A stretch of 28,198 bases of DNA, taken from positions 1 to 28,198 of the IMG/VR virus record IMGVR_UViG_3300037119_008205; one strand, 5' to 3'. The notes under the pieces are model-generated. The model was not told where the DNA came from. It worked only from the letters and a program-made list of their open reading frames with translations, and did no database searches. Origin of the DNA: a virus. Shown in pieces: positions 10,797 through 24,701 of the stretch (position 1 is the stretch's first letter; every line of letters starts with the position of its first letter). The translations under genes and the position numbers were made by a program.

Positions 10797-10805
10797 TTAT
10801 CCACA
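10797..10805 (+). promoter_or_regulatory. DnaA box TTATCCACA
   Basis: A perfect match to the standard DnaA box. It lies 28 bp above the -35 element of the rightward promoter and next to the AT-rich stretch. Similar boxes are found above two other promoters in the window (15439 and 24655), so a regulatory rather than only replicative role is possible. Confidence 0.6.
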
Positions 10806-10824
10806 CCCCACACTATAATGACAC

Positions 10825-10853
10825 TTGACACCGACACCGACACCATATAAGAT
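10825..10853 (+). promoter_or_regulatory. Rightward early promoter (TTGACA-17-TAAGAT)
   Basis: A perfect -35 hexamer at 10825-10830 and TAAGAT at 10848-10853 are separated by 17 bp holding ACACCG repeats. The same two hexamers and the same 17-bp spacing, with a different spacer sequence, occur at 24673-24701. It is placed to drive the early operon that starts at 10909. Confidence 0.7.
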
Positions 10854-10908
10854 AGGTAATAGAGGGCAGTCGAGCTCTCACAATTAACAACAAAATAACC
10901 ACATAACA

Positions 10909-11088
10909 ATGCAAACAAAATTAAGAATGATGACGGAAGAAGAGCGAGAAAGCAATATAAAAGAAATGATTATAGAGCAGAGAAAATCAAACTTTTGGAG
11001 GGGCTTTAGAGCTTCATTGCTTTGTACTCTACCCATCATCGCGGTGCTTGTGTACCTTACCTATAAGTTGGTAATGGTAACCGTTTAA
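10909..11088 (+). CDS. Small membrane protein, 59 aa
   Basis: Charged helical N-terminus (residues 1-30, rich in Glu, Arg and Lys) followed by one membrane span at about 36-58 (SLLCTLPIIAVLVYLTYKLV). It has no signal peptide and is likely tail-anchored in the inner membrane with the N-terminus in the cytoplasm. It is the first gene of the early transcript, about 50 nt below the -10 element; the leader has no Shine-Dalgarno sequence (ACCACATAACAATG). First-expressed membrane proteins in phages often affect superinfection or host physiology; this is inference only. Confidence 0.6.
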   Translation: MQTKLRMMTEEERESNIKEMIIEQRKSNFWRGFRASLLCTLPIIAVLVYLTYKLVMVTV

Positions 11089-11098
11089 GCAGTCAGTG

Positions 11099-11148
11099 GC
11101 TTGTGTCCTCTCACCATCATTTCTACTCACAAGCGGGAATGATGGTGA
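11099..11148 (+). ncRNA. Structured RNA element with two crossing stems
   Basis: Stem A pairs GCTTGTG (11099-11105) with CACAAGC (11128-11134). Stem B pairs TCACCATCATT (11111-11121) with AATGATGGTGA (11138-11148); both are perfect. The stems interlock, so they form either a pseudoknot or two exclusive folds. No U run follows, so it is not a simple terminator. It fills the gap between the first and second early genes. Confidence 0.55.
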
Positions 11149-11181
11149 AAGGAAAAGACCTTATCAAATAACACTATCAAA

Positions 11182-11355
11182 ATGAAATACTTCAAATTAA
11201 AGTTTAAGGACGGCACGATTGAGATCAAGAAAGCGGAAAGCGTCTTAGCTCTTATCAAAGAGCATGATCTTGCAACAAAGAAGCATATCAGCACTAGTAT
11301 CTTTGAACTTTCCGGCGAACAGTTGGCTATTGCGCAGTCGAATGATTCAGAATAA
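11182..11355 (+). CDS. Small hypothetical protein, 57 aa
   Basis: A compact frame starting MKYFKLKFKDGTIEIKKAES, with an N-terminal beta hairpin pattern and a central helix (VLALIKEHDLATKK), ending EQLAIAQSNDSE. The start lies just after an ATCAAATAA leader motif. It resembles many small phage early proteins in size and style, but no family is recognised. It shares a 13-nt exact repeat (TATTGCGCAGTCG) with the next gene in a different reading frame. Confidence 0.6.
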   Translation: MKYFKLKFKDGTIEIKKAESVLALIKEHDLATKKHISTSIFELSGEQLAIAQSNDSE

Positions 11356-11389
11356 TAACAGCATTATCAAATAAATTAATATCAAATAT

Positions 11390-11515
11390 ATGTCTATAAA
11401 AATGCACAAAGAGGGATGGTATTGCGCAGTCGGTAAGATTTACGGGATCACAGTGTGCGGTTTCGGTATTACACACGAACTGGCTTTGCGTGACGCGCTG
11501 GGCCTTGATAAATAA
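11390..11515 (+). CDS. Micro-protein, 41 aa
   Basis: The frame MSIKMHKEGWYCAVGKIYGI continues to ALRDALGLDK. The start has an ideal context for this genome (ATCAAATAT directly before ATG). The pattern GWYCAVG..YGI...G.T...AL.DAL looks like a short beta hairpin plus a helix, which recalls small phage proteins of the double-strand-helix type that act on a target enzyme. No function can be assigned. Confidence 0.5.
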   Translation: MSIKMHKEGWYCAVGKIYGITVCGFGITHELALRDALGLDK

Positions 11516-11525
11516 CACTATTAAA

Positions 11526-12029
11526 ATGAATACAAAAATACCAGACGAAAAAGGATACACACAAGGAGCATGGAAGGGAGCAATGTTTGATCGCAACCTT
11601 GATATAAAAGAGATCGCGGAACGCATAAAGCATTTTTGCAAGAAGCAATATCCCACTTGTAAGTTTTCTATCACTATACAACGCTACAGTGGCGGGCAAG
11701 CTATGCATCTTGCACTTATGGGCGCACCATTCGACATATTCGCAACACCGGAAATAGAGAAAGTACCATTCTCATTCTTTGGAGGGGTAGAGCGAGGTCT
11801 TGAATACTGGAAAGATAGCATCACGCGAGGACATCATCAGGTAAATAGCTATCATTTGAAAGATGATTTTTACCTAAATGAAAAAGGAAAGGAGATTATG
11901 CGGTTTCTTATCGACGCGACAAATGTCTATAACTACGATGACAGCGATGCGCAGATTGACTATTTTAACACTAACTTTTATACCCATTTCGCGGTCGGCA
12001 AGTGGGATAAGCCTTTCACCATCAAATAA
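11526..12029 (+). CDS. LPD29-like domain protein, 167 aa
   Basis: The segment IKEIAERIKHFCKKQYPTCKFSI followed by a TIQRYSGGQAMHLAL strand matches the pattern of the large polyvalent-protein-associated domain 29 (a helix, then FPxxKFSVRxxxYSGGxSI). That domain is widespread in mobile-element proteins and small stand-alone proteins. The C-terminal half contains an FYTHFAVGKWDKPF end. I took the ATG at 11526 after ATTAAA; upstream in-frame starts overlap the previous gene. It is probably an accessory protein acting against host defences or in early takeover, which is inference. Confidence 0.62.
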   Translation: MNTKIPDEKGYTQGAWKGAMFDRNLDIKEIAERIKHFCKKQYPTCKFSITIQRYSGGQAMHLALMGAPFDIFATPEIEKVPFSFFGGVERGLEYWKDSITRGHHQVNSYHLKDDFYLNEKGKEIMRFLIDATNVYNYDDSDAQIDYFNTNFYTHFAVGKWDKPFTIK

Positions 12030-12030
12030 C

Positions 12031-12330
12031 ATGACAAACATCACACAAGCATACAAGGATCTCATGGAAGCGGATCGAAAGATAAAGAAGCGACACCGAT
12101 ACGCATGCGGGATCGAACAGGAAGCAGACGCGGAGCAGTTAAAAGACGGGAAGGCATCGCTCTTCTTTTCTTCGCCGGACGGCCAGAACGGAGAATTGTA
12201 TTTCGAATTGCAAAAGCTAGGGTGGTCTGGCGGTGGATACAAAGCGCCCTACGATTGGAGGATATCGAAAGACGGTGACATTATTCAGTATTGCGAAGGG
12301 GATATCTATTTAACAGCCAACAACAAATAA
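12031..12330 (+). CDS. Hypothetical protein, 99 aa
   Basis: The start ATG follows ATCAAATAA-C, the stop of the previous gene. The N-terminal helix (ITQAYKDLMEADRKIKKRHR) is followed by a mixed region and a beta-rich C-terminus with GWSGGGYKAPYDWRIS and KDGDIIQYCEGDIYL. The second half resembles small phage proteins with a Tyr/Trp-rich strand core. Unknown function; genomic coupling to the LPD29-like gene suggests a shared early role. Confidence 0.6.
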   Translation: MTNITQAYKDLMEADRKIKKRHRYACGIEQEADAEQLKDGKASLFFSSPDGQNGELYFELQKLGWSGGGYKAPYDWRISKDGDIIQYCEGDIYLTANNK

Positions 12331-12331
12331 A

Positions 12332-12550
12332 ATGACCATCACACTATCAAAGAAAGAAGCGGATATTCTGCTCTCGATACTTGAAAACAAGTCCGAAGAA
12401 ATAGGAAATTTCGATATGGGGGAAGACGAATCAGAAGATGACATATCGACAATCGACACCATCATCGACAAGATCGAAAATCCGCAAGACATGTCGCGGA
12501 GCGATTGGGAAAAGATGGGGTTTAGAAATGACTGGGGGTTGCTACGATAA
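12332..12550 (+). CDS. Hypothetical acidic protein, 72 aa
   Basis: Begins one base after the previous stop. The N-terminal LSKKEADILLSILENKSEEI helix is followed by an acidic linker (MGEDESEDDISTIDTIIDKI) and a short C-terminal WEKMGFRNDWGLL segment. Probably soluble and helical. No motif is recognised. Confidence 0.58.
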   Translation: MTITLSKKEADILLSILENKSEEIGNFDMGEDESEDDISTIDTIIDKIENPQDMSRSDWEKMGFRNDWGLLR

Positions 12551-12560
12551 TCACAAATAT

Positions 12561-12818
12561 ATGAAAATTATTAAAACAAACGAAGAAACGCGCATTCTTA
12601 TCATCAAAAAAAGTATCACACACGACTTTTTGGTAAACGGTAAGAAAGTAACGGTCAGAGAGTATGTCCACGAAAACAACATTATAAACGAATACGAGAA
12701 TGACGCCGACATTATCGGGGATACACGCCACCTAACAAACGAGGAGCTTGAAGCAATCGGCGAGAATTTAACAGAAAATCTCCTCTTGGAAGTTGGAGAG
12801 GAAACAATAATCGAATAA
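12561..12818 (+). CDS. Hypothetical protein, 85 aa
   Basis: The start follows ACAAATATATG, the strongest start context of this genome; longer in-frame extension upstream overlaps the previous gene and is unlikely. The protein has a beta-rich N-terminus (MKIIKTNEETRILIIKKS), a VNGKKVTVREYV strand and an acidic helical C-terminus (LTNEELEAIGENLTENLL). Unknown function. Confidence 0.6.
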   Translation: MKIIKTNEETRILIIKKSITHDFLVNGKKVTVREYVHENNIINEYENDADIIGDTRHLTNEELEAIGENLTENLLLEVGEETIIE

Positions 12819-12820
12819 TT

Positions 12821-13036
12821 ATGTACGAAAAAGAATATATTGTTCGGTCATGGCAGTACGGTACGAAAGTGAAGCATGATGATAAAGAATATACCGTTCA
12901 CAAAATGAGTTACGGTGACTACTTTTTAGAGCCTACATCATGGCAAGGTGGAGAAAAGGACGGGTTTTCAAAAGGAACGATATGGCTTGAAAAGGAAATA
13001 ATTAATAATAAAGTCTACTACAAAATAAATATATGA
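12821..13036 (+). CDS. Hypothetical protein, 71 aa
   Basis: Starts 2 bp after the previous stop and overlaps the next gene by ATGA. Aromatic-rich and likely a small beta barrel: YIVRSWQYGTKVKH, EYTVHKMSYGDYF and a C-terminal NKVYYKINI strand. Lacks any known catalytic motif. Probably an early host-takeover protein by position. Confidence 0.6.
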   Translation: MYEKEYIVRSWQYGTKVKHDDKEYTVHKMSYGDYFLEPTSWQGGEKDGFSKGTIWLEKEIINNKVYYKINI

Positions 13037-13272
13037 CAAAACAAATTGTATTTCTTATCAAAGCGGACAATGGAAAAGAAGCGGTCATGCGTTTGCCGGT
13101 GGATAGGTACCAAGGCATCACAGCCAAAGGGCACCAAATAATCAGACAGCGCTTTTATGACGGTTCGGCGAAGGTGTATCACGGTCTAAAATATGCCTTG
13201 AATCTCGAAGCGTTCACGAATGGCGAAGACTTGATGCAAGCATTATCAAATTATCAAAAAAGCATTATATGA
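13033..13272 (+). CDS. Hypothetical protein, 79 aa
   Basis: The start ATGACAAAA follows AAATAAATAT and overlaps the previous stop by four bases. Predicted strands VFLIKADNGKEAVMRLPV, then a basic mid part (KGHQIIRQRFYDGSAKVYHG) and a C-terminal helix. It overlaps the next gene by ATGA. No family is recognised. Confidence 0.6.
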   Translation: MTKQIVFLIKADNGKEAVMRLPVDRYQGITAKGHQIIRQRFYDGSAKVYHGLKYALNLEAFTNGEDLMQALSNYQKSII

Positions 13273-13460
13273 ACTACGCATATCTTATCCCAGTCGAAGA
13301 CGATTGCGGGAGCGACGATTACAGTGACAAGGAGTTTCAAGAGATAGCACGACGAAAAGGGAACGTGTTCACACTCTCGGAGTTTCAAGATTGGTACAAT
13401 TACGAAAGCGAAGTTGTGCGCGAAGATTGGTACGTTCGGTTCTTTTATCAGATAAATTAA
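13269..13460 (+). CDS. Hypothetical acidic protein, 63 aa
   Basis: Acidic and tyrosine-rich (NYAYLIPVEDDCGSDDYSD), with a helix FQEIARRKGNVFTLSEFQDWYN and a C-terminal WYVRFFYQIN. The layout resembles small phage proteins of about 60 residues with a FTLSEFQ-type helix that often modulate host factors; I cannot name the family. ATGA overlap with the previous gene supports the start. Confidence 0.58.
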   Translation: MNYAYLIPVEDDCGSDDYSDKEFQEIARRKGNVFTLSEFQDWYNYESEVVREDWYVRFFYQIN

Positions 13461-13464
13461 AACA

Positions 13465-13707
13465 ATGGACACAAAAATACAGACGGTTGTCAGTGAACAG
13501 TTGAAGATATACAACAAGAAGCCCACACCACAGAACATGGAGCGATTGCAGGAGGTTATTGGTTTTGATCGCCACCAAAGGGGCGTAAAGCTCTCGATGG
13601 ATATCATCGCCTACCTTTCAAATTATTGCGGGGTATACGATGACCACGAGATTGAATTGATGCAAAAGGCACTCGACTTATTGGAAGAGACGGAGAGGTT
13701 TCATTAA
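13465..13707 (+). CDS. Hypothetical helical protein, 80 aa
   Basis: Starts 4 bp after the previous stop (TAAAACAATG). All-helical pattern: a leading helix DTKIQTVVSEQLKIYNKK, then NMERLQEVIGFDRH, and a C-terminal IELMQKALDLLEETERF. Two Cys/Tyr residues occur near the middle (NYCGVYDD). No recognised domain. Confidence 0.6.
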   Translation: MDTKIQTVVSEQLKIYNKKPTPQNMERLQEVIGFDRHQRGVKLSMDIIAYLSNYCGVYDDHEIELMQKALDLLEETERFH

Positions 13708-13729
13708 TTTATCAAGTAACAAAATCGAC

Positions 13730-13960
13730 ATGAATCAAAAAAAGGAAGGTTTCGATCAGTTGGCGGAGGTTTACGGATATACCCCCGTCATAAGTAAGAA
13801 TCCGTATATGTGGTCATATGTGAATGAAGACGGTAAGCGCATCAACCACTATTTCACGACAGGCACGACGACAGTCCAGACGGTCGACTGGAAAGCGAGG
13901 ACTTACAGAAATGTCCTCATCGAAATGGACTTTGAGAAAGTATTAATAGATAACAAATAA
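13730..13960 (+). CDS. Hypothetical protein, 76 aa
   Basis: Soluble and aromatic, with a beta-strand run NPYMWSYVNEDGKRINHYF and TTTVQTVDWKARTYRNVLI. The leader is ATCAAGTAACAAAATCGACATG, a variant of the common ATCAAATAA leader. Function is unknown. The next gene begins 3 bp after its stop. Confidence 0.6.
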   Translation: MNQKKEGFDQLAEVYGYTPVISKNPYMWSYVNEDGKRINHYFTTGTTTVQTVDWKARTYRNVLIEMDFEKVLIDNK

Positions 13961-13963
13961 TTT

Positions 13964-14125
13964 ATGGACACATATCAGTTCAAAATAATTTATGTCGGAG
14001 AAAGAATGACACCGTCAGATAGAGATAGGTATGAAGCAGTGCTCGACAAATACGGTATGGAAGGTTTTTATATAGTCAAGATCGAAAATGGCTATGTATT
14101 CATGCAGAGTTTCACTAGACTTTAA
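13964..14125 (+). CDS. Small hypothetical protein, 53 aa
   Basis: A frame of 53 codons starting MDTYQFKIIYVGERMTPSDR and ending FYIVKIENGYVFMQSFTRL, so a beta-rich fold with a single helix. It fits exactly between two neighbours (3 bp after one, 25 bp before the next). Its stop codon lies inside a 16-bp palindrome. Function is unknown. Confidence 0.55.
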   Translation: MDTYQFKIIYVGERMTPSDRDRYEAVLDKYGMEGFYIVKIENGYVFMQSFTRL

Positions 14126-14138
14126 TAATTAATTATTA
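14123..14138. promoter_or_regulatory. Perfect 16-bp AT palindrome
   Basis: TAATAATTAATTATTA is fully self-complementary. It starts at the stop codon of the preceding gene and lies 13 bp before the ATG of the exported-protein gene. A similar AT core, ATTAATTAAT, lies at 24719-24728 before the ribbon-helix-helix regulator. Operator or start-region structure are both possible. Confidence 0.4.
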
Positions 14139-14150
14139 CATAATTCGAAT

Positions 14151-14450
14151 ATGAAAAACATCAAATTGATAGTGGCGACGACAGTCATCACGGGGATCAT
14201 ATTTATCGGCGGTACGGCTTACGGTGCGTTCAGTCTCCCGTCGATCGTTGGTGGAAAGAGTACGCAAATCGACACGGTGCCAAAGGTGGAAAAAACTGAA
14301 AGAGAGATCGAAGAAAAGAAAGCACAAGAAGAGTGGGTAAAGGCCGAACAGCTTATGCCGGAAACTTTTGGAGTAGCACCATCGACATTCGAGGAACGAC
14401 TTTACAGTCTCGAATTACGGGTTGCGGAGTTAGAAGCTAATCAAAGATAA
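14151..14450 (+). CDS. Exported or membrane-anchored coiled-coil protein, 99 aa
   Basis: Residues 1-27 form a basic start and a hydrophobic segment (IKLIVATTVITGIIFIGGTAYGAF) that reads as a signal peptide or N-terminal anchor. The rest is a soluble acidic/basic helix with a C-terminal heptad run (EERLYSLELRVAELEANQ). This is a typical layout for an envelope-spanning or periplasmic accessory protein. A spanin-like role with the next gene is conceivable because the two overlap by one base (TAATG), but both lie far from the endolysin. Confidence 0.65.
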   Translation: MKNIKLIVATTVITGIIFIGGTAYGAFSLPSIVGGKSTQIDTVPKVEKTEREIEEKKAQEEWVKAEQLMPETFGVAPSTFEERLYSLELRVAELEANQR

Positions 14451-14617
14451 TGTATAAAATATTCAAACCACAACTTCTGTTCATCGTAATACTTCTCGCA
14501 TTTCTCTCTATTGCAATGACGAACTCACGGCTCACGCGAATCGGTGACGAGCTACAGCGAAGCAATGACTCTTTCGATCGGGCATTCGGGACATCAACAG
14601 CATCTTTAATCAAATAA
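14450..14617 (+). CDS. Small single-span membrane protein, 55 aa
   Basis: The ATG shares its A with the stop of the preceding gene. One membrane span (about residues 7-24, PQLLFIVILLAFLSIAM) is followed by a polar tail (TRIGDELQRSNDSFDRAFG). Likely type II or tail-out inner-membrane protein. Coupled translation suggests it acts with the preceding anchored protein. Confidence 0.58.
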   Translation: MYKIFKPQLLFIVILLAFLSIAMTNSRLTRIGDELQRSNDSFDRAFGTSTASLIK

Positions 14618-14619
14618 CT

Positions 14620-14965: not shown

Positions 14966-14969
14966 ATAT

Positions 14970-15032: not shown

Positions 15033-15036
15033 GGAA

Positions 15037-15213: not shown

Positions 15214-15226
15214 TACGCAAATCGAC

Positions 15227-15418: not shown

Positions 15419-15438
15419 GATGTGGGTTCTGGGATCAG

Positions 15439-15483
15439 TTATCCCCACTTATTGCTTGCACCGCCAGCGACACATAGTATAAT
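15439..15483 (+). promoter_or_regulatory. Promoter module for the replication block
   Basis: TTATCCCCA (15439-15447, one base from a DnaA box) is followed by TTGCAC with CACCG/GACAC-type repeats and a perfect TATAAT at 15478-15483. The -35 is weak (CTTGCA with a 17-bp spacer). The order of parts matches the modules at 10797-10853 and 24655-24701, so it is read as a divergent copy driving the genes from 15601. Confidence 0.55.
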
Positions 15484-15524
15484 CAGCGAAGGTTTAGATT
15501 CTCCTAGTCCGAGATCAAAATCTG

Positions 15525-15600: not shown

Positions 15601-16233
15601 ATGGGTCTACAAAATAGAGAAGGTGGAAAGTATTTTACAATCATGGGTGGAAAGTTTTCAGTTCGTGTTCCCGAAGGAACACCGAAGGCCGTCACCCGTG
15701 TCAACAAGAAAGGAGTAACGGTTCACGAAGTCTTCTATGATTCATTTACCGGCAAGCTCGTTGCGATAAAGACACAAGACTCTCCATACGGAAAGAATTG
15801 GGTTTTTAGTTTCAAAGATGGTGCAGAGGTATATAATCTCCAGCTCTCATATTCAAACAGCTATGCAACAAACCTCTTGAAGATGCTTCCGAACATCGAC
15901 CTTACAAAAGAGATGAAGGTTCAGCCTGCAGAGAAGATCGACGCGGACGGAAAGAAGAAGTCATCACTCTTTATCAACCAAGAAGGCAATTCGATCAAGC
16001 ATGCATATACCAAGGATGTTCCTAACGGAATGCCACCTATGGAGCAGATAGTTGTAAAAGGTCTCCCACAGTGGGATGATACGAAGCGCATCGAGTTTCT
16101 TCATGCAATGGTGGTTCGGGATATCCTTCCGAAATTGCCAAAGGATGAATCGGTGACAGCTTCTCCGGCAGACGAAGCATTGGCAGTCGATGATTTCGAT
16201 GCGAAGAAGGAGGCGGAAGATTTAGATTTTTAA
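15601..16233 (+). CDS. SSB-like single-stranded DNA-binding protein, 210 aa
   Basis: The N-terminal 150 residues are beta-rich, with a KGVTVHEVFYDSFTGKLVAI and KNWVFSFKDGAEVYNLQLSY pattern seen in phage proteins annotated as ssDNA-binding. The C-terminus is a disordered acidic tail ending DDFDAKKEAEDLDF, the SSB-type partner-binding tail (acidic residues, final Phe). It is the first gene of the replication block, just before primase-helicase, which fits. The start follows ATCAAATATATG. Function is inferred from tail, size and neighbours; the OB fold itself was not verified. Confidence 0.65.
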   Translation: MGLQNREGGKYFTIMGGKFSVRVPEGTPKAVTRVNKKGVTVHEVFYDSFTGKLVAIKTQDSPYGKNWVFSFKDGAEVYNLQLSYSNSYATNLLKMLPNIDLTKEMKVQPAEKIDADGKKKSSLFINQEGNSIKHAYTKDVPNGMPPMEQIVVKGLPQWDDTKRIEFLHAMVVRDILPKLPKDESVTASPADEALAVDDFDAKKEAEDLDF

Positions 16234-16458: not shown

Positions 16459-16611
16459 ATGAAAAATAATACCATCACACTACAACAGAATATTGTCACC
16501 AAGAATCAGGACGGATGTTTCAATGGAGTTTTGCCCCGTGATGGGGGCTTTCATTCCAAAGACGCATCCGTCCTGTTTTTTGTTGATAATCCTAATTATA
16601 AAATCCTATGA
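16459..16611 (+). CDS. 50-residue ORF overlapping a terminator, possible leader peptide
   Basis: A frame of 50 codons starts MKNNTITLQQNIVTKNQ and ends DNPNYKIL, with its TGA overlapping the primase-helicase ATG (ATGATG). The hairpin at 16507-16581 lies inside it, so a ribosome translating the ORF would open the terminator stem. It has no strong A/T start motif (TTCAACAATG). It may be a regulatory leader ORF rather than a gene with a stable product. Confidence 0.45.
   Translation: MKNNTITLQQNIVTKNQDGCFNGVLPRDGGFHSKDASVLFFVDNPNYKIL
16507..16581 (+). terminator. Terminator or attenuator in front of primase-helicase
   Basis: CAGGACGGATG (16507-16517) pairs perfectly with CATCCGTCCTG (16565-16575), followed by six T (16576-16581). 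The 47-nt loop carries an inner stem GCCCC (16533-16537) with GGGGC (16544-16548). The T run begins 32 bp before the primase-helicase ATG. It is a strong factor-independent terminator shape and would reduce transcription into the replication genes unless opened. Confidence 0.7.
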
Positions 16612-19016
16612 TGGCACCAAAGAAAACAAAATTCTTGGATAGCTTCCCCGGCCACGTCTATCGCTATATCGACCAGACTGGCGAAAATCGCCCACCGGTA
16701 TCATCGGAAGAACGGCGCGACGATCTCAACAAAGCAGGGTATGAAGCGTACTTTACAGTGAACGGTTTCAAAGGAGCCCCAGATGCAAAGAAAGAACACT
16801 GCTCTTCCATCAACGCCTTCTTCGTCGATATCGACGGACGCAAGGACCCGGGGGAGCTCGAAGCGATAAAAGAAAAGCTCATGCCGTCATTCATCTTGGA
16901 GACCAAGAACGGTTTCCATGTGTATTGGCTTTTGGATGAGAGTATATTCAAAGAAGAAAAGACCCCCGACGAATGGGAAAGCGCCGTACTTCGATGGGAG
17001 AGAATCGAACAGTCGATCGTGACTTCTTTGAACGCCGATCCTGTAGTGAAAGACCTCACTCGCATATTGCGTATTCCGGATACTTACTATTGGAAGAAGT
17101 CCGGTGATGCGTGGAAAGGCGGAGTGGAGAAGGCACCGTTCAAGATCAAAGGGATCCACAAGAATACGAATGCGAATTACTCAATGGATCAGATGGCGGA
17201 GGCATTCCCTGAAAAAGAGACTGCGATCGCGCCGTTCCCCAAAACCCCACAAGGAGAGAGCATGGCGAAGTACGCTGATGCGGAAAAGAAAAACTTTTTC
17301 GAACTGGTCAACAAGGCATATCCGATGGAAGAGCGTGATAGCTTCATGTCTCTTATATCGGGAAAAGCAGGAACCTTGCCACCAAACCTCGTCTCTCGAA
17401 ATCAAGCGCTTCTTATCACCGCGACACTGATGAGACAAGCTGGGTGGACCAAGAGCAAAGCGATCAGGCATATCGACGAAGTGGGATGGCATGGCATCGA
17501 AGCAGAGCGAGGTGGAAAACAGGAGATCGTGAACACGATCAATTCCGCATACGATACCGGTTACACCTATTCATACAAGAACGAGATCATTGCTTTCAAC
17601 ATGACCCCCGAAGAGCAGATGAAGATCCAAGCCGCCTATACTGCAGTTGCAAAAGCGAGAAAGGAAGTCGATAAGACGAGATTCAGCAATTACGAATATG
17701 AAGTGGCGAGTCGGTATCCGTATCTTAAAAAGAATGAAATCGGTATCGTGTTCAATTACGTCGATGGGGTATATAAAATGCTTACCGATCAAGACCTCTC
17801 GAATATCATTCTCACGATGCTCTACGAAGACATGCTATGGGGATATCGAACGAAAAGAAATATCGCGGACAAGGTGGCGTGTCTCGTTTCCATCATTCCC
17901 GATCTCGTGCTCACTGATGACAAAGGAGATTATTTCAATGTGCGCAATGGCCTGTATCAGATCTCGACGGGAGAGCTCAAGCCCCACACTCCTGATTTCG
18001 TGTCGCTTGTGCAGTCGCCGGTTATATACGATCCCGATGCAATCGCACCGACATGGAATGCATGTCTTGAAGCGTGGATGCATGGACCGGAGCGAGCGGA
18101 GAAGATGGAGATGCTACAGCAATTTGCGGGGTATCTTCTGACTTCTTCAATGGTGCATGCGAAAGCGCTCTTCTTGGTGGGAGACGGAGGAAACGGAAAA
18201 TCGACATTCGCGGACACTCTCGGAATGGTTATCGGTGAACAGGGAACCTCTCGCATCGACCTCGAAGATCTTTATGGAATGTTCGGACTCAAAGGTCTTA
18301 TCGGTAAGCGATTGAACATCATTGAAGAGGTGGGCGGAAATTACTATCAGTCGCACAAATTGAAGAAGCTCATTTCCGGAGAAGATCTCACCATCAATAT
18401 GAAGTTCAAGGATCAGTTCAAGTTTCGTCCTACGGCAAAATTCATCTTCGCAGTGAACACTATGCCGCGTGTCGATGATTCATCGACTGCTACAGAGAGA
18501 CGCATCGCAGTGGTGCAGTTCAATAATAACTTCCGAAACATGCCGAACACCGAGCTTCGATTCAGTGATGGACTTCTTGCACAGGAGCTTCCCGGAATCC
18601 TTAATTGGATGATCGAGGGAATCAAGAAACTTCGAAAGGCGAAGAAGTTCACCATCACGCAAGAACAGCAAGTGGCGCTTCTTGAGTACCGAGAAGAGAA
18701 CTCATCGGTCGAAGGGTTTGTTGGGGAGTGTTGTGTCTTCGAAGCGGGAAAAGTTATCACCGCTCGAGAGTTGTATTCGGAGTACAAAGATTACTGCATT
18801 AAGGATGGTCGAAAGTTTAAATCGGCGATCGCCTTCACCAAAGAGATCAAGGCGCTCGGAAAGAGATTTGAGAAGTTTCAGTTTATTGATCGAACCAACG
18901 GTCACTCCACCGCACGATTCGAAGGGGTGCAGATCAATAAGCATTGGTCGGGAGACAGCTTGCATTTTGAGAAAGAGGAGGACGCTTATTCATTACATAA
19001 AGACGATGAGCTCTAA
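16608..19016 (+). CDS. Primase-SF3 helicase (P4-type), 802 aa
   Basis: A two-part replication enzyme. The N-terminal primase-polymerase part shows FFVDIDG at 71-77 (metal-binding aspartates) and KNGFHVYW around 100-107, as in RepB/archaeal-type prim-pol domains. The C-terminal part is an SF3 helicase: Walker A GDGGNGKST near 525-533, Walker B-like RLNIIEEV near 567-574 and a sensor KFIFAVNTMPR near 614-624. A winged-helix-like C-terminal region follows. It is the central replication protein, acting with the SSB-like protein and possibly loading at the iteron region. Confidence 0.93.
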   Translation: MMAPKKTKFLDSFPGHVYRYIDQTGENRPPVSSEERRDDLNKAGYEAYFTVNGFKGAPDAKKEHCSSINAFFVDIDGRKDPGELEAIKEKLMPSFILETKNGFHVYWLLDESIFKEEKTPDEWESAVLRWERIEQSIVTSLNADPVVKDLTRILRIPDTYYWKKSGDAWKGGVEKAPFKIKGIHKNTNANYSMDQMAEAFPEKETAIAPFPKTPQGESMAKYADAEKKNFFELVNKAYPMEERDSFMSLISGKAGTLPPNLVSRNQALLITATLMRQAGWTKSKAIRHIDEVGWHGIEAERGGKQEIVNTINSAYDTGYTYSYKNEIIAFNMTPEEQMKIQAAYTAVAKARKEVDKTRFSNYEYEVASRYPYLKKNEIGIVFNYVDGVYKMLTDQDLSNIILTMLYEDMLWGYRTKRNIADKVACLVSIIPDLVLTDDKGDYFNVRNGLYQISTGELKPHTPDFVSLVQSPVIYDPDAIAPTWNACLEAWMHGPERAEKMEMLQQFAGYLLTSSMVHAKALFLVGDGGNGKSTFADTLGMVIGEQGTSRIDLEDLYGMFGLKGLIGKRLNIIEEVGGNYYQSHKLKKLISGEDLTINMKFKDQFKFRPTAKFIFAVNTMPRVDDSSTATERRIAVVQFNNNFRNMPNTELRFSDGLLAQELPGILNWMIEGIKKLRKAKKFTITQEQQVALLEYREENSSVEGFVGECCVFEAGKVITARELYSEYKDYCIKDGRKFKSAIAFTKEIKALGKRFEKFQFIDRTNGHSTARFEGVQINKHWSGDSLHFEKEEDAYSLHKDDEL

Positions 19017-19437
19017 ATACATAATCCCATTGATGAATATGCTTATTTATACCAAGGCAAAGCGGTATAAGCCGTCGCGTCTTCCCGATGATATCGAAGA
19101 GGGGGATATTGGAGACTGCTTCGATCACTGTCTACTTCAAGCGGTGAAGTCATGTGGAAAGTATCAATACTGCGAAGGGATGGCGCTTGTCGGTGGTAAA
19201 TGGATCCATCATGCGTGGCTCACCGATCGAGAAAAGATTTATGCATATGATCCGACATGGAAAATGATAGTGCCCGAAGGAGTTCCGATTCCCGGTTATG
19301 TCATTTATTACGTTGGAGCGGTACTCAATCTGGATCTCGTGACGGAGTTTGTGATAAAGACCGGATACAAATCACCGATAGCGAATGCCGATAAAGATCG
19401 TGATCTTGCCCATAAAATATATGAAAGCGCAAAATAA
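19006..19437 (+). CDS. Cys-His-Asp enzyme-like small protein, 143 aa
   Basis: Three conserved-looking points suggest a papain/transglutaminase-type triad: Cys38 in GDCFDHCLLQAV, His69 in KWIHHAWLT and Asp82 in YAYDPTW. The same order (Cys, HAW, DPxx) occurs in transglutaminase-like and lasso-peptide B2-type protease folds and in small uncharacterised phage proteins. The start overlaps the end of primase-helicase by 11 nt, and its end overlaps the SF2 helicase gene by 17 nt. A peptidase or cross-linking role is possible; catalysis is inferred from motif order alone. Confidence 0.6.
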   Translation: MSSKYIIPLMNMLIYTKAKRYKPSRLPDDIEEGDIGDCFDHCLLQAVKSCGKYQYCEGMALVGGKWIHHAWLTDREKIYAYDPTWKMIVPEGVPIPGYVIYYVGAVLNLDLVTEFVIKTGYKSPIANADKDRDLAHKIYESAK

Positions 19438-20746
19438 CATCGAACATACGATCAGTGAAATTGAGCGAATAGGAGGATTCAAATTCTATGATATCCAAAA
19501 GACGATTATTCGTGACGATAGAGAAAAGACGGGAATATTTCTCGGTACCGGAGTCGGAAAGACTCTCCCCTCTCTCGTTCTCTCCGAAGGATCAACACTT
19601 GTTGTGTGTCCGAAACAGCAAAAGCTCGATCGCACTTGGCAGAAGAATGACTTGAAATTCAGTCTTGGAAAATTCATCACCGTTGTATCAAAAGAGGAGT
19701 TCCGAAGGGATTGGGAAAGTTACGGATTATTTACCACCGTTGTTTTCGATGAATGTCATAACATGCTCGGGGTCTCACCAGAGACGCGACAGCGAAATAG
19801 GATACAGATCCCGAAGACATCACAGATATTTGAAGCATGCCTTCTTTATCTCCGAAAGCATCCGCCGAATCGGTTCTATATGGTGTCTGCGACTCCGGTA
19901 ACGAAGCCGATGAATATGTGGGCCTTGGCGAAGCTGTTCGGAAAGGATTGGGACTTCTTCAAATTCCGTTCCACGTTCTATTTCCCGACGATGATGGGCC
20001 GGCGCCAAGTATGGCTTCCGAGGAAGGATGATGTGACGAAGCAGAGACTGGCGCTGAATGTCCAGAAGTTCGGATACACCGGAGCCCTCAAGGACTTCAT
20101 GGATGTGCCGGAACAGACCCACATCGAGAAGCATATCGAGCTCTCGGATGAACAGAAGCATGCGATCAAGAAATTGAGTGAAGAGGAAGCAGATCCATTG
20201 GTGCGGAGATCTCGCATGCGGACCATAGAGAACGGGGTACTTTATGGGAAGAAAGTGGAGGAGATATCCGAAAAGGTCGATCGGATGGTGAAAGATACGA
20301 TCTTCTTCAAGAACGGGAAAATCGAATACATATTGGAGCGGGCTGTGGAGTTTCCGAAGATGATGGTATTCGCGGCCTATACGGCACAGGTTGAGGCTAT
20401 AGCGACGGCATTGCGGGAAGAGGGTCACAAGGTCTTTACGGTCACAGGGGCCACCAAGGACCGTTCTACGGTCTTTGAAGAGGTGGAAGCACTGGATGAG
20501 GGTATCATCGTGGTCGCGGCCCAGATCTGCGAGGGGTATCGAGTACCATCTGCCCCCTGTATGATCTTCGCTTCGAAGTCGAACAGGTTCCTTCATTACG
20601 ATCAGGGGAAGGGGCGTATTCTTGACGGCCAACACCTCAAGAAAAACCTCTATATCCATCTGATCGTACCCGACGGGGCCGATGAGGACTGCCATGAGTC
20701 GATCATGTCAGGTCAGGATTTTCAGGAAAAATTATCAGTATTATAA
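19421..20746 (+). CDS. SF2 (SNF2/DEAH-like) helicase, 441 aa
   Basis: ATP-dependent helicase or translocase. Walker A is GTGVGKT (42-48), the DEAH-type motif II is DECH (110-113), motif III is SATP (156-159), and the C-terminal half has a QGKGRILDGQ stretch near 394-403 equivalent to motif VI. The chosen start has AAAATATATG; a longer in-frame start at 19385 would overlap the previous gene more. Such helicases aid phage replication or recombination. The 3' half uses more G/C-ending codons than the 5' half. Confidence 0.9.
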   Translation: MKAQNNIEHTISEIERIGGFKFYDIQKTIIRDDREKTGIFLGTGVGKTLPSLVLSEGSTLVVCPKQQKLDRTWQKNDLKFSLGKFITVVSKEEFRRDWESYGLFTTVVFDECHNMLGVSPETRQRNRIQIPKTSQIFEACLLYLRKHPPNRFYMVSATPVTKPMNMWALAKLFGKDWDFFKFRSTFYFPTMMGRRQVWLPRKDDVTKQRLALNVQKFGYTGALKDFMDVPEQTHIEKHIELSDEQKHAIKKLSEEEADPLVRRSRMRTIENGVLYGKKVEEISEKVDRMVKDTIFFKNGKIEYILERAVEFPKMMVFAAYTAQVEAIATALREEGHKVFTVTGATKDRSTVFEEVEALDEGIIVVAAQICEGYRVPSAPCMIFASKSNRFLHYDQGKGRILDGQHLKKNLYIHLIVPDGADEDCHESIMSGQDFQEKLSVL

Positions 20747-20750
20747 AAAA

Positions 20751-21035: not shown

Positions 21036-21160
21036 AAACAATAATAGAACTTTTCGGGATAGTATTGGGATTCCTATTTCTGACACTATTCTATCTTGCA
21101 CTGACAGCTGGACCCGTGGTCGTGATTGTCTGGGTCATTTGGAAATTATTTTTCAATTAA
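21032..21160 (+). CDS. Small membrane protein with one or two spans, 42 aa
   Basis: Almost entirely hydrophobic: a first span about residues 5-24 and a second about 27-39, with a GP turn between (LTAGPVVVI), ending WKLFFN. The start overlaps the previous gene by ATGA. This resembles a tiny holin-like or membrane-disturbing protein, but also the other micro-membrane proteins in this genome; the ending FN is shared with the 20-residue protein at 14970. Confidence 0.55.
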   Translation: MKTIIELFGIVLGFLFLTLFYLALTAGPVVVIVWVIWKLFFN

Positions 21161-21161
21161 A

Positions 21162-21338
21162 ATGAAACAACCTACATCTACTAAGAGAGTGAAGGGAAAG
21201 GTGAGGAAGGTGATGGAGCTTGCACATCAACTTCAAAAGGATTGGATGAAAGTACATAAAGACTGGAGAACACCTGTTTGGGGTTACTTCAGAGACGAAG
21301 CAGAAAGAATCTTACCCACTACTAAATCAAAGAAATGA
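21162..21338 (+). CDS. Basic small protein, 58 aa
   Basis: Basic, Trp-containing helical protein: residues 1-15 rich in Lys/Arg, then KVMELAHQLQKDWMKVHKDW and a C-terminal YFRDEAERIL helix. Starts 1 bp after the previous stop. This is the first of a run of genes using AGA/AGG arginine codons rather than CGN. Reminiscent of small phage proteins with two amphipathic helices; no function assigned. Confidence 0.55.
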   Translation: MKQPTSTKRVKGKVRKVMELAHQLQKDWMKVHKDWRTPVWGYFRDEAERILPTTKSKK

Positions 21339-21634
21339 AAGACGCAATCACCAAGGCTATAGAGGGAGGATGGAAGATGTCAGAGACTGAAACAATCTAT
21401 GTTGCGAATAATATACCTTTTGTGAATGATTCTTTTCTTCTCGACCCCCTCTTCTGGTCAGCACTAGGGAAGAGTTTGGGGTGGGAAGTATGGGACAAGA
21501 AAGCACTTGAGGATTCTGTAGCTGTTGGAGGGAAGATTAAATACTGGTGGCAGATAATGTGGCACCGCTTCATAGACCACCTAGCAGAAGGAAAAGACGC
21601 AGATTCATTCTTTACTAACCTCCTCCCCAGATAA
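21335..21634 (+). CDS. Conserved phage protein of the DPLFW type, 99 aa
   Basis: Contains the recurrent phage pattern LLDPLFWSALGKSLGWE and, at the C-terminus, WHRFIDHLAEGKDADSFF, a set I recognise from many uncharacterised phage and plasmid proteins. Function is unknown. It overlaps the previous gene by ATGA. A diverged paralogue with the same plan is at 22257-22586. Confidence 0.65.
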   Translation: MKDAITKAIEGGWKMSETETIYVANNIPFVNDSFLLDPLFWSALGKSLGWEVWDKKALEDSVAVGGKIKYWWQIMWHRFIDHLAEGKDADSFFTNLLPR

Positions 21635-21648
21635 CTTAATCAAATAAT

Positions 21649-21879
21649 ATGAAGGAAGACACAACAGAGAAAGTAGACGTTCCAGCAGAAGAACACGGTA
21701 TTAGAGTGAAATATATGGGTCAGTGGACAGAAAGGATGAGCTTTCAATACTTCCAAGATCACTATTCCGAGAGATTTCCGCAGGTCGAAGCCTTAGAAGT
21801 CAACCAGATGCTTACAAGAGATGAGTTTGAATCACTTTATCCAGAAGTAATTATCACTAACCATATAGAGAAACTATGA
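21649..21879 (+). CDS. Hypothetical protein, 76 aa
   Basis: Starts after ATCAAATAA-T, a standard leader. Acidic and helical (VDVPAEEHGIRVKYMGQW, RMSFQYFQDHYSERF), with a C-terminal DEFESLYPEVII segment. It overlaps the next gene by ATGA. No family is recognised; arginine codons are mainly AGA/AGG. Confidence 0.6.
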   Translation: MKEDTTEKVDVPAEEHGIRVKYMGQWTERMSFQYFQDHYSERFPQVEALEVNQMLTRDEFESLYPEVIITNHIEKL

Positions 21880-22160
21880 AAGACAAAGACTACGGACAAC
21901 AGAAGCCTAAAGATATATATGCTGCACATCAACAGCAGACCACCTCTAACTCACACCAGAAAGGATGGCCCATTGAATTTCAAGAGAGATTCGTTAGAAA
22001 GCAAAACGATAGTGGACAGTTTATCAATGGAACTCCTGTCGAATGGGAATACATTAGTGGCAAGGTTGAAGACCTTAAATCCTTCATCAAAGAAGTAGAA
22101 GAAGAAGCATATCAACGTGGGAGAAAGGAATGTAGAGATAAATGTTCTACACACTTCTAG
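21876..22160 (+). CDS. Hypothetical protein, 94 aa
   Basis: A polar N-terminus rich in Gln (AAHQQQTTSNSHQKG), a short central strand region and a C-terminal helix (VEDLKSFIKEVEEEAYQRGR) ending KECRDKCSTHF. The C-terminal Cys/His pair may bind metal. Arginines are AGA apart from one CGT. Its last 19 nt overlap a small membrane ORF. Confidence 0.58.
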   Translation: MKDKDYGQQKPKDIYAAHQQQTTSNSHQKGWPIEFQERFVRKQNDSGQFINGTPVEWEYISGKVEDLKSFIKEVEEEAYQRGRKECRDKCSTHF

Positions 22161-22249
22161 AGATACTCCTGGTCACCATACTCCTCATAGGGAATGTACT
22201 GTGGGAAATAAGTGGATGGGTATATAATTTATTCATTAAAAAAGATTGA
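22142..22249 (+). CDS. Membrane micro-protein, 35 aa
   Basis: A frame of 35 codons starts inside the previous gene: MFYTLLEILLVTILLIGNVL, then a short amphipathic end (EISGWVYNLFIKKD). One membrane span. It stops 7 bp before the next gene. Being two genes before the lytic peptidase it could be a holin-type protein, but nothing proves this. Confidence 0.48.
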   Translation: MFYTLLEILLVTILLIGNVLWEISGWVYNLFIKKD

Positions 22250-22256
22250 TAAAACA

Positions 22257-22586
22257 ATGGAACATTTAATTAAATTAGCGGTACGGTTCGGATGGAGGAA
22301 TAGCAAAGACATTGATGTCGAGCATGTGATTCTCACTGATCCGGAGATCTTCTTCGATAAAGAGTTTTGGAAGGCAATCTCTCGAGCGAAAAAGTGGCAG
22401 GGGATAAAATGTTACCCCTGTGGCGGACACCACGATGTATCGGATCTGTGGGTGGATGAAGGGAATCCCTGCTCAAAACATGTAGCGATGAGATTCTATG
22501 AAATCGTTTACCATTATGGACTTGATGTGGCGATAGATCTCTTGCAACAGACGATGAGCAAGAAGTCGGATAGTTTAATAACATAA
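22257..22586 (+). CDS. Paralogue of the DPLFW-type phage protein, 109 aa
   Basis: Shows the same plan as 21335-21634: an ILTDPEIFFDKEFWKAISRAKKW block, a cysteine pair in IKCYPCGGHHD and a C-terminal MRFYEIVYHYGLDVAIDLLQ helix equivalent to the WHRFIDHLAEGKD helix of the other copy. The cysteine/histidine insertion is specific to this copy. The ATG at 22257 follows GATAAAACA; upstream in-frame starts overlap the micro-protein. CGG/CGA arginines show that codon use has returned to the genome norm. Confidence 0.62.
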   Translation: MEHLIKLAVRFGWRNSKDIDVEHVILTDPEIFFDKEFWKAISRAKKWQGIKCYPCGGHHDVSDLWVDEGNPCSKHVAMRFYEIVYHYGLDVAIDLLQQTMSKKSDSLIT

Positions 22587-22595
22587 TATAAATAT

Positions 22596-23705
22596 ATGCC
22601 AACAAAAAATAAAAAAGTTAATTTGTCAGGATTCAAGACGGGAGGGCTTGTCGATAATCGACCAAAGGAAAAGAAGCAGAAAGACTTCGATCCTCGGGAA
22701 GCATTCGCATCAGCAGCACCTCTCGATTGGAGAGAAAAGACCATCGAAGAGGTGGAAGCGGAGATCATGGCGACAAGCATCAGTCAGCACCAGACATTCC
22801 GATGTGTGTCCGAATATGCCGGAATCTTTTTCGAATGGGCGGAGTATCTTGAGAATGGTGTTCGAAAGATCTTTTCGAGACGCGATGTGTACGGACGACG
22901 ATTCAATTTCCCGGGAGGTGGAATGATGATGCACGACCTATTCAAAATCATGCGGGAAGGATCGTGTCTCGAAGAACAGCTTCCTTCAACCGCTTCAACC
23001 GAGAAGCAGATCAATCTTCCGTATGAGGTGACTGCTGACATGAAAGCGATTCGAGCAACTCATGCTGCAGACACGAGTTTCACATGGGACACTTGGACAA
23101 TCGACGATTTGGCGCAGATGATCGAACAGAAGATACCACAATGCCTTTTCTGGTATTTCGATAACAATACTCGGAATGAATGGTGGAATAAATCTCCGAA
23201 AGTAGTGACGAAGAAGATCGACCTTTACGCCGAAGACACTGGAAGGCATCAAGCGACCGGCGTGTCATATCTTTTGAAAGACGGAAAGAAATGCATTGCG
23301 GTGATGGATTCCGCTGGTCAGGGAACAGGTCTTGGAAAACAGAAGAATATCCGTTTCGTGTCGGAAGATTTCATCAAGGCTCGAAACTATGCTGCGGGAT
23401 TTGCTATTGACAAAAAGAATCTCGATTACAAGCCGATAGAGACCATTCGATATACCTTCATGCGCAATTTGAAGAACGGGGATAATGGAGAGGATGTGAA
23501 AATTCTTCAAAAGATCCTTGTACTCGAGGGATGCCTGGCGATCAAGACTCCTACACTTTTGTACCGAGGTATGACTGAAATGGGAGTGAAGAAATTACAA
23601 GAGAAGTATGCGAAAGAGATCCTTGCGCCACTCGGACTCAAGATAGGAACGGGAATGTTTTGGGATGCGACCCGAAAATTTATCAACAAGAAATACGGAG
23701 TCTGA
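22596..23705 (+). CDS. Papain-like peptidase with peptidoglycan-binding domain, probable endolysin, 369 aa
   Basis: Residues 45-270 fit a C1A-type cysteine peptidase: Gln64 and Cys70 in ISQHQTFRCVSE keep the six-residue papain spacing, His218 lies in GRHQATGVSY, and Asp238 lies in IAVMDSAGQG, where papains have the Asn of NSWG. A linker leads to a PG_binding_1-like domain (about 291-366, NGEDVKILQKIL to GMFWDATRKFI). This pairing suggests cell-wall or cross-bridge cleavage at lysis. I recall similar fusions in phages of candidate-phyla bacteria. The start follows ATAAATATATG. No signal peptide is present, so a holin or other export route is needed. Confidence 0.8.
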   Translation: MPTKNKKVNLSGFKTGGLVDNRPKEKKQKDFDPREAFASAAPLDWREKTIEEVEAEIMATSISQHQTFRCVSEYAGIFFEWAEYLENGVRKIFSRRDVYGRRFNFPGGGMMMHDLFKIMREGSCLEEQLPSTASTEKQINLPYEVTADMKAIRATHAADTSFTWDTWTIDDLAQMIEQKIPQCLFWYFDNNTRNEWWNKSPKVVTKKIDLYAEDTGRHQATGVSYLLKDGKKCIAVMDSAGQGTGLGKQKNIRFVSEDFIKARNYAAGFAIDKKNLDYKPIETIRYTFMRNLKNGDNGEDVKILQKILVLEGCLAIKTPTLLYRGMTEMGVKKLQEKYAKEILAPLGLKIGTGMFWDATRKFINKKYGV

Positions 23706-23734
23706 TATCAAAATAGAAAATAGGGGAGTATAAT
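23680..23734 (+). promoter_or_regulatory. Weak promoter candidate after the peptidase gene
   Basis: A perfect TATAAT at 23729-23734 follows an 11-base match (ATAGGGGAGTA, 23720-23730) to the sequence below the promoter at 24673, and TTATCAACA lies at 23680, inside the peptidase gene. There is no clear -35 hexamer. It may be a decayed copy of the promoter module. Confidence 0.3.
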
Positions 23735-23768
23735 TAAATTCGGAAGAACCTTTACAACCCAACTTTCT

Positions 23769-23903
23769 ATGAAGCCGTACAAGCGCCGTCAATTCACTTT
23801 GACAATGGTCTGCTTCGTGCGGCCTAAACTCAAATTCACCTGTGTCAACATCAAGCTGAAAAGCGGACGTTGGTATATCACTGGCAGATTCACCCAAAAT
23901 TGA
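23769..23903 (+). CDS. Very small basic protein, 44 aa
   Basis: Frame of 44 codons, MKPYKRRQFTLTMVCFVRPK to YITGRFTQN, basic and strand-rich. It is followed directly by another ATG (TGAATG). The leader is not the usual A/T motif, and this may be chance. It opens a set of tiny overlapping frames after the peptidase gene. Confidence 0.33.
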   Translation: MKPYKRRQFTLTMVCFVRPKLKFTCVNIKLKSGRWYITGRFTQN

Positions 23904-24017
23904 ATGAAAAAACCACCGTACCGAAACCAACCCCACCGACAACTCATCCACAAATGGAAACGAAATCAGACACGCAGGATATACCACTGGCAATCGCCGG
24001 TATCACCCTCCTTTTAG
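23904..24017 (+). CDS. Tiny basic ORF, 37 aa, doubtful
   Basis: Begins immediately after the previous stop. Very basic and polar (KPPYRNQPHRQLIHKWKRNQ), no membrane segment. It overlaps the membrane ORF at 23954 in another frame, so at most one is the main product in this stretch. Listed because stop-start abutment is typical of this genome. Confidence 0.2.
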   Translation: MKKPPYRNQPHRQLIHKWKRNQTRRIYHWQSPVSPSF

Positions 24018-24046
24018 GCTTCATCGCTTGGTGGAGGATCAAGTGA
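23954..24046 (+). CDS. Membrane micro-protein, 30 aa
   Basis: METKSDTQDIPLAIAGITLL continues to GFIAWWRIK, a short polar start plus one clear membrane helix and a basic end. It lies just after the probable endolysin. Its TGA overlaps a GTG start (GTGA). A very small holin-like or other membrane protein is possible; short length limits confidence. Confidence 0.38.
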   Translation: METKSDTQDIPLAIAGITLLLGFIAWWRIK

Positions 24047-24129
24047 AAAGTTACCAACTTCTTCTCTTCTACCCGAAGATGGGGGGAGGGTGGCACTACT
24101 GGGTCTCAATTCCGAAATGGGCATATTAG
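24043..24129 (+). CDS. Tiny ORF with GTG start, 28 aa, doubtful
   Basis: GTG overlaps the preceding stop codon by four bases. The frame VKSYQLLLFYPKMGGGWHYW continues to VSIPKWAY. Aromatic-rich and possibly membrane-interfacial. It could be chance; the overlap is the only support. Confidence 0.2.
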   Translation: MKSYQLLLFYPKMGGGWHYWVSIPKWAY

Positions 24130-24152
24130 AAAGGAAAGGTGATAACAATCCC

Positions 24153-24177
24153 GATGGGCACACAACGCATGCCCATC
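24153..24177 (+). other. 8-bp perfect hairpin
   Basis: GATGGGCA (24153-24160) pairs with TGCCCATC (24170-24177) with a 9-nt loop. No T run follows. With the terminator 55 bp further on it forms a structured, apparently gene-free 3' region (24130-24293). Confidence 0.45.
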
Positions 24178-24232
24178 CATAGCGAAACAAAACAATTTCA
24201 GTTGCCGACGGAGTTCGCTACCTCTAGGCGCC

Positions 24233-24269
24233 AGCAGCTGATCTCTTCCGAAGGGGTCAGCTGCTATTT
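24233..24269 (+). terminator. Strong rho-independent-type terminator
   Basis: AGCAGCTGA (24233-24241) pairs perfectly with TCAGCTGCT (24257-24265), and the intervening bases extend the stem to 15 bp (two wobble pairs) with a CCG loop. ATTTT follows. It closes the transcript containing the peptidase gene. Confidence 0.7.
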
Positions 24270-24293
24270 TAAAAATCATCAAAATATTGAACT

Positions 24294-24671
24294 ATGAAGA
24301 AAGTTGAGTCAAAATCTAACGAAATATTGAACCAATATCTCCGAGTGAAGAGGTTCTATTGCTACTACGAGATCAAGGTGATGAAGGGAAACACTCTCAA
24401 TTTCAAAGCTATCGAGGAGAACCAGGATGAAGGGCTTCCAGCTCTTGAAAAGGAAGGACTGGTGTGGAAATTGTCCGATGAGGATTCCCGAAAGAAGCCC
24501 TGCGACGGGTTCTGTACTCCTCCCCTCCCCGCTTACCTTGCGATCAAAAAAGATAGGACTTTTTACATGGTTCGGTATGAATATATCTTACGAATGAAGG
24601 AGGCCGGAGAAAAGTCCATCACTCGAGAAGAAGCGGAATCTCTAGCGGATAAAGTTATCCACATGGGGTAA
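24294..24671 (+). CDS. Hypothetical protein, 125 aa
   Basis: A soluble protein with a basic helical start (SKSNEILNQYLRVKRFYCYYEIKV), a central acidic region and a C-terminal helix (EEAESLADKVIHMG). It has Cys-containing CDGFCTPPLP in the middle, a possible metal site. It lies between a strong terminator and the next promoter, so it depends on read-through or an unseen promoter. Its last codons overlap the DnaA-box-like TTATCCACA. Confidence 0.62.
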   Translation: MKKVESKSNEILNQYLRVKRFYCYYEIKVMKGNTLNFKAIEENQDEGLPALEKEGLVWKLSDEDSRKKPCDGFCTPPLPAYLAIKKDRTFYMVRYEYILRMKEAGEKSITREEAESLADKVIHMG

Positions 24672-24701
24672 CTTGACACCGACACCGCCATATAATAAGA
24701 T
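24655..24701 (+). promoter_or_regulatory. Promoter module with DnaA-box-like site
   Basis: A perfect TTATCCACA (24655-24663) sits inside the end of the preceding gene, then TTGACA at 24673-24678 and TAAGAT at 24696-24701 with a 17-bp spacer starting CCGACACCG. The spacer shares the CCGACACCG part with the early promoter at 10825 but then differs, while keeping its length. Drives the regulator at 24736. Confidence 0.68.

Follow-up and report, generated by a model that had tools for sequence, protein, structure and literature searches.

Promoter modules in the window

The 28,198-base virus record IMGVR_UViG_3300037119_008205, analysed here over its whole length and referred to as the window, carries portal and terminase genes running leftward and replication genes running rightward. 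It contains three promoters (P1, P2 and P3), each with a DnaA-box-like site above the -35 element and CGACA-type repeats in the spacer between -35 and -10. P1 lies at the junction of the structural and early genes, P2 ahead of the gene at 15601-16233 and the primase, and P3 ahead of a gene for a 55-residue ribbon-helix-helix (RHH) protein. The original prediction had described the three sites, their -35 and -10 elements and CCGACA repeats, and had placed the promoters at the heads of rightward gene blocks. These elements all lie at the coordinates given, and the primase operon and the RHH gene are among the blocks so headed.

10797-10805, + strand: P1 DnaA-box-like site TTATCCACA, 19 bp above the -35 element
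10825-10853, + strand: P1, early promoter, TTGACA at 10825-10830 and TAAGAT at 10848-10853; its 17-bp spacer CCGACACCGACACCATA, with GACACC repeats, is a candidate RHH operator
15439-15447, + strand: P2 DnaA-box-like site TTATCCCCA, 8 bp above the -35 element
15456-15483, + strand: P2, primase-operon promoter, TTGCAC at 15456-15461 and TATAAT at 15478-15483; 16-bp spacer CGCCAGCGACACATAG, CGACA core at 15468-15472
24655-24663, + strand: P3 DnaA-box-like site TTATCCACA, 9 bp above the -35 element
24673-24701, + strand: P3, TTGACA at 24673-24678 and TAAGAT at 24696-24701; its 17-bp spacer CCGACACCGCCATATAA is a candidate RHH operator
24736-24903, + strand: 55-residue Arc-like RHH protein, candidate autoregulator at the CGACA repeats
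7806-9596, - strand: terminase large subunit, the basis for defining the clade
15601-16233, + strand: first gene of the P2 operon, conserved, phrog_19605
16608-19016, + strand: D5-like primase/helicase (DUF5906, D5_N, Pox_D5)
19385-20746, + strand: helicase
24294-24671, + strand: Holliday-junction-resolvase-like gene (phrog_843, E-value 4e-7), overlapping the P3 box with its 3' codons

The hexamers are TTGACA/TATAAT-like and stand 16-18 bp apart, the -35 of P2 (TTGCAC) being weak. As part of the two-input model set out below, and at the same somewhat better than even confidence, we take the phage to be podovirus-like and P1-P3 to be promoters of the host sigma-70 (housekeeping) type. TTATCCMCA occurs three times in the window, always on the + strand, against 0.38 expected, a count reached in 1 of 100 shuffles, and CCGACACCG occurs in exactly two copies, at P1 and P3. 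These window-only counts are just modestly unusual, and the case rests on positions and relatives. A further, degenerate trace that had been suggested at 23680-23734 was not borne out, as TTATCAACA there lies inside the open reading frame 22596-23705 and the TATAAT near 23729 is accompanied by neither a -35 element nor a CGACA repeat.

Conservation across a phage clade

The original prediction had proposed a motif search for the module in relatives. The pattern TTATCCACAN{4,30}TTGACACCGAC, run against 2.9 million viral contigs with the reversed box as control, detected 12 stretches versus 2 for the control. The 12 stretches represent 11 distinct contigs, 9 of which encode a close terminase relative (67-100% identity to that of the window); the others are G007, a fragment without a terminase, and G011, with a distant terminase match only. 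Neither of the two control records has a terminase relative.

A terminase profile detected at least 190 viral relatives, of which the best 80 were retrieved independently of the promoter pattern. Many relatives have a counterpart of P1, on the strand opposite the terminase gene and 1.3-2.6 kb upstream of its start. Counterparts of P2 precede homologues of 15601-16233, often with a weak -35 of the TTGCA- type, and these orthologous promoters contain CGACA or TGTCG. Counterparts of P3 precede either the RHH gene or the next gene upstream, which is the Holliday-junction-resolvase-like one. Presence and synteny are thus direct observations: the three promoters are a set kept across a clade of uncultured phages, with terminases 68-80% identical, and no local oddity, and the DnaA-box-like site, recurring by synteny, is the genuine promoter part that it had been claimed to be.

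Box and repeat are also associated statistically. Since part of the loci used in the gap counts came from the pattern search, the association was rerun in records not found by the module pattern, where a box lies within about 30 bp of 15 of 46 repeat promoters versus 2 of 230 other promoter-like sites (Fisher p 2.6e-11). Kinship among the phages inflates such counts, and counts per contig cluster are given where possible. Relatives that keep the promoters while losing the box or the repeats had been named in advance as evidence against the module; the outcome is divided, as the repeats prove to be widely kept, with changes in their letters, and by our own count the box is retained in roughly 60% of the recognisable junction promoters.

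Sequence and spacing of the DnaA-box-like site

The E. coli DnaA consensus is TTWTNCACA (PMC5835720). At the module position the box variants TTATACACA, TTTTCCACA, TTATCCCCA, TTGTCCACA, CTATCCACA and TTATCAACA are found; TTATCCACA, present twice in the window, and TTATACACA and TTTTCCACA, from relatives, fall within this consensus, which is that of E. coli and may not be that of the host. The site thus shows much the kind of variation seen in DnaA boxes.

The distance between box and promoter is phased, most boxes standing 7-10 or 16-19 bp above the -35 and on one face of the helix. Between the box and an exact TTGACA, 13 gaps in the clade measure 8-10 bp and 9 measure 16-21 bp, with none at 11-15 bp, several boxes per promoter being permitted in this count; on the opposite side of the same boxes, examined as a control, only scattered single matches occur. 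Among records outside the module pattern the phasing persists in weaker form (period 10-10.5; Rayleigh p about 0.002, from 15 sites with related sequences). Such a position and helical phase, with gaps gathering at 8-11 and 16-21 bp and sparse between, would suit contact with RNA polymerase.

The P3 box overlaps the final codons (K-V-I-H) of the upstream open reading frame 24294-24671, a feature absent from the original prediction, and P3 boxes in the clade frequently share sequence with the 3' codons V/L-I-H of the gene upstream. Two exceptions are G416 and G002, whose frames were read directly: there the box falls after the stop codon of the upstream gene and is still 7 bp above the -35; therefore, selection appears to act on the P3 box as a DNA site rather than as coding sequence.

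Chance, or the ordinary composition of promoters, could account for the modest counts within the window. It does not account for the syntenic recurrence, the Fisher test, the control patterns or the phased gap, and these comparative tests rule it out for practical purposes.

Box promoters beyond the clade

The box is not confined to these phages. The pattern TTATCCACAN{6,10}TTGACAN{16,18}TATAAT detected 72 stretches in viral contigs versus 7 with the reversed box, about a tenfold difference, with gaps of 8 bp (20), 9 bp (25), 10 bp (22), 6 bp (4) and 7 bp (0). The bare 15-mer TTGACACCGACACCG, tried as a query, gave more than 118 stretches and was dropped as too unspecific. When gaps of 0-30 bp were allowed with a spacer of 17 and counted per contig cluster, the matches listed (80 of 116 stretches) fell into 27 clusters at 8-11 bp and 3 each at 3-7 and 12-15 bp, followed by 18 at 16-21 bp, 3 at 22-24 bp and 18 at 25-30 bp. 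Box promoters occur in phages that are otherwise unlike one another, spread over about 99 contig clusters. The first genes behind them belong to varied families, none of them dominant; in the viral contigs L181-L251 and L374-L450, box promoters with gaps of 8-10 bp precede primase, ligase, Sak4 and integrase families, among others. For two box-promoter contigs derived from isolates, no near match turned up among phages or plasmids.

The recurrence of the box in so many unlike phages favours a shared host protein as its reader. The simplest such reader would be a protein that many bacteria have and that recognises TTATCCACA, and DnaA, as the known one, is the best candidate. The original prediction had named DnaA, or a phage protein using the same sites, as the reader of the whole module; host DnaA stands as the best candidate for the box, but not for box and repeats together.

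A phage-encoded protein that mimics the specificity of DnaA could bind the box instead, with the repeats serving as the RHH operator. The full CCGAC module with a -10 element gave no match in a first scan of a bacterial and archaeal genome collection, which would fit a phage factor. However, 19 phage records showed no DnaA domain IV in a search that scored in 12 of 14 reference genomes used as positive controls, and the 99 or so clusters speak for a host protein, which makes a mimic rather unlikely.

Spacer repeats and the RHH protein

The spacer units read GACACC, GACAGC, GACATC or GACAGT, or take TGTCGACA-like inverted forms, and they share the register of GACA in the -35 element. CGACA repeats characterise the clade and are also present in the promoter of the RHH gene itself. 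At P2 the unit is inverted in L008 (GGTGTCGGTG) and likewise in L047; therefore, the repeat is not a by-product of the -35 element, and occurrence in either orientation is in keeping with a site for a protein. Similarity among spacers is higher within a phage than from phage to phage (7.63 versus 6.38, permutation p 0.0002), the p-value being indicative, as several P2 and P3 cores were added by hand and 12 sites judged intragenic were left out. In L083, L067 and L051, promoter-like sites with GACA...TGTC inverted repeats occur on both strands (for example at 2129/2141 in L051), and these are perhaps divergent overlapping operators.

Box and repeat are two separable inputs, and this separability is observed from both sides. 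The repeat is kept where the box is lost in L040, L044, L062 and L068, an indication that the phage supplies a trans-acting factor other than the protein reading the box. Conversely, a CGACA-type spacer is found in only 5 of 71 general box promoters, few of which share any marker protein with the window; the box promoter is the more general element of the two. A single regulator for box and repeats, as originally envisaged, could explain their strong co-occurrence within the clade. A single phage-encoded regulator is nevertheless very improbable, since the box stands at the same spacing in unrelated phages that mostly lack both repeat and marker proteins, and relatives carry repeats without a box.

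Replication origins would offer another explanation, in which a DnaA box and iteron-like GACACC repeats are joined to a promoter for transcriptional activation of the origin. A DnaA box with short direct repeats does resemble iteron origins, P2 precedes the primase operon, and DnaA, transcription and origin firing are coupled in lambda (PMC8203912). However, each phage has three modules at the heads of gene blocks; the repeats have a fixed place within the -35/-10 spacer, are variable and are sometimes inverted; and a coarse analysis of GC skew found no switch at P2 or P3. An iteron origin would be a single origin with an initiator gene and a repeat array, whereas the repeats here are confined to promoter spacers, and we consider this explanation improbable.

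The RHH protein is the likely phage factor acting at the CGACA repeats. It matches the Arc-like repressors of PHROG (E-value 4e-4) and, weakly, ParG, NikA, TacA1 and AvtR. An AlphaFold (AF2) monomer model (pLDDT 80.7) has an extended N-terminus and helices at residues 17-30 and 34-53, the strand being unassigned in the monomer, and the top structural matches of this model are RHH proteins (TacA1, CopG, Arc, AvtR), at E-values (0.28 or above) that are not significant. In our own reading, its residues R-F-N-T-R align with Q9-F10-N11-L12-R13 of Arc, which we take to be the contact residues of Arc. A recognisable RHH gene is found in 18 of 37 records, with one match per record. In the window and most relatives it lies directly behind the repeat promoter, an arrangement of gene and candidate operator of the Arc type; this linkage of P3 to the RHH gene is again a direct observation. 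The pointer in the original prediction to the 55-residue RHH protein was well placed: the clade keeps this gene, mostly with one of these promoters immediately ahead of it.

Other features of the window

The Holliday-junction-resolvase-like gene at 24294-24671 is conserved directly upstream of the RHH gene. The P3 gene block also encodes a Pam3 gp33-like DUF7307 protein (24896-25189) and an endonuclease-VII-like protein (27433-27984). Between the leftward structural operon and P1, at 10669-10715, inverted and direct repeats of CTTATGCCCC are found (AGGGGCATAAGAA..TTCTTATGCCCC, then TCTTATGCCCC), a possible terminator or operator.

The leader RNA of P2 (15484-15600, + strand) has GTGGGGATGTTCCCAC among its small hairpins, with forms such as ATGGTGGTAGTCCACCA in relatives. 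In the regions upstream of 15601 homologues (L006, L008, L021, L032, L047, L049, L052, L055 and L075) the pairs covary, 8 of 10 consensus pairs being changed on both sides. The folding stability of the window's leader alone is ordinary (z -0.58), and Rfam has zero matches within the window. It is a possible regulatory leader.

Search for a host

In an annotated phage collection no close phage was found, the terminase and primase relatives being distant only. The only terminase relative in 84,980 genomes is L099 (JAUUZT010000063.1), a 5.6-kb contig of a Dehalococcoidia metagenome-assembled genome, probably a phage fragment of uncertain host. Among 400 genomes of the same phylum there was no other close relative and no box promoter, and given this lack of support the assignment of Dehalococcoidia as host was treated as a possible binning error.

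A two-input model

We favour, at somewhat better than even confidence, a model in which P1-P3 are host sigma-70 promoters with two independent inputs, host DnaA boosting them and the phage's RHH protein repressing them in the manner of Arc; that DnaA and the RHH protein bind there, and whether each activates or represses, we infer from the sequence patterns described above. Host RNA polymerase would transcribe from all three promoters. DnaA would bind a box some 50 or 60 bp above the start, on the side of the helix that the polymerase also occupies, and would most likely stimulate transcription. The CGACA run that starts in the -35 and fills the spacer would be the operator of the RHH protein, which, building up from P3, would come to cover -35 and spacer and close the promoters, shutting off the early genes (P1), the primase operon (P2) and its own gene together with recombination genes (P3).

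Several observations weigh against this model. TTATCCCCA, at P2, and CTATCCACA are outside the E. coli consensus, though the DnaA of the host may differ in specificity, and about 40% of the recognisable junction promoters have no box. In five records with an RHH gene (G419, G417, G425, G423 and G433) the repeat promoter is not directly upstream of it; in G417 and G425 it is one gene further up, ahead of the resolvase-like gene. The contact residues of the RHH protein read R-Y-G, R-N-Y or R-N-H in some phages, where the CGACA core shows no obvious change.

DnaA might also repress these promoters, or be titrated at the boxes, rather than activate. Many promoters are repressed by DnaA (PMC5835720), and many box promoters, selected by pattern, have consensus -35 and -10 elements needing no activator. 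The box, however, is above the core promoter, without overlap and in helical phase, and at P2 it is paired with the weak TTGCAC; repression or titration therefore receives a minor, though real, share of our belief.

Among known systems, Arc/Pant of phage P22 is the closest in layout. There the arc gene lies behind a promoter that contains its operator, and in both cases a small phage RHH gene comes first behind a promoter with an operator, here a candidate, between -35 and -10, so that autoregulation is expected. Unlike P22, the clade has as candidate operator a CGACA run, direct or inverted, that starts in the -35, several promoters that share it, and an added upstream DnaA box. RHH repressors of the CopG/omega/ParG type bind short repeats, direct or inverted, that lie across the promoter of their own gene, and a similar overlap of short repeats with -35 and spacer is seen here; however, these belong to plasmid copy or partition systems and not to phage early control, and the repeats here differ in their hexamer period, GACANN.

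DnaA is a known transcription activator at lambda (PMC8203912). At pR/ori of this phage and at host genes, nrdAB among them (PMC8203912), the host initiator likewise acts through DnaA boxes on the transcription of phage or replication genes, whereas here one box at a fixed, phased distance above the -35 is repeated from promoter to promoter within a phage and is also seen in many unrelated phages. A search of the open-access literature, with subscription papers outside its scope, yielded no account of early phage promoters that carry a phased DnaA box.

More broadly, and only tentatively, a widespread class of phage promoters may read host DnaA through one box helically fixed about 9, 18 or 28 bp above the -35, so that early transcription would depend on the host's replication state; within this clade, the box and an Arc-like spacer repressor would together make a switch with two inputs, present at three promoters. 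Apart from lambda, few cases are known in which DnaA controls phage transcription. If true, the phased box in many unrelated phages makes the sensing of host replication at early transcription directly testable by a defined sequence rule, and the RHH protein of the clade with its repeat operator is a second compact, testable pair. Phages may in this way tie early gene expression to the replication machinery of their hosts.

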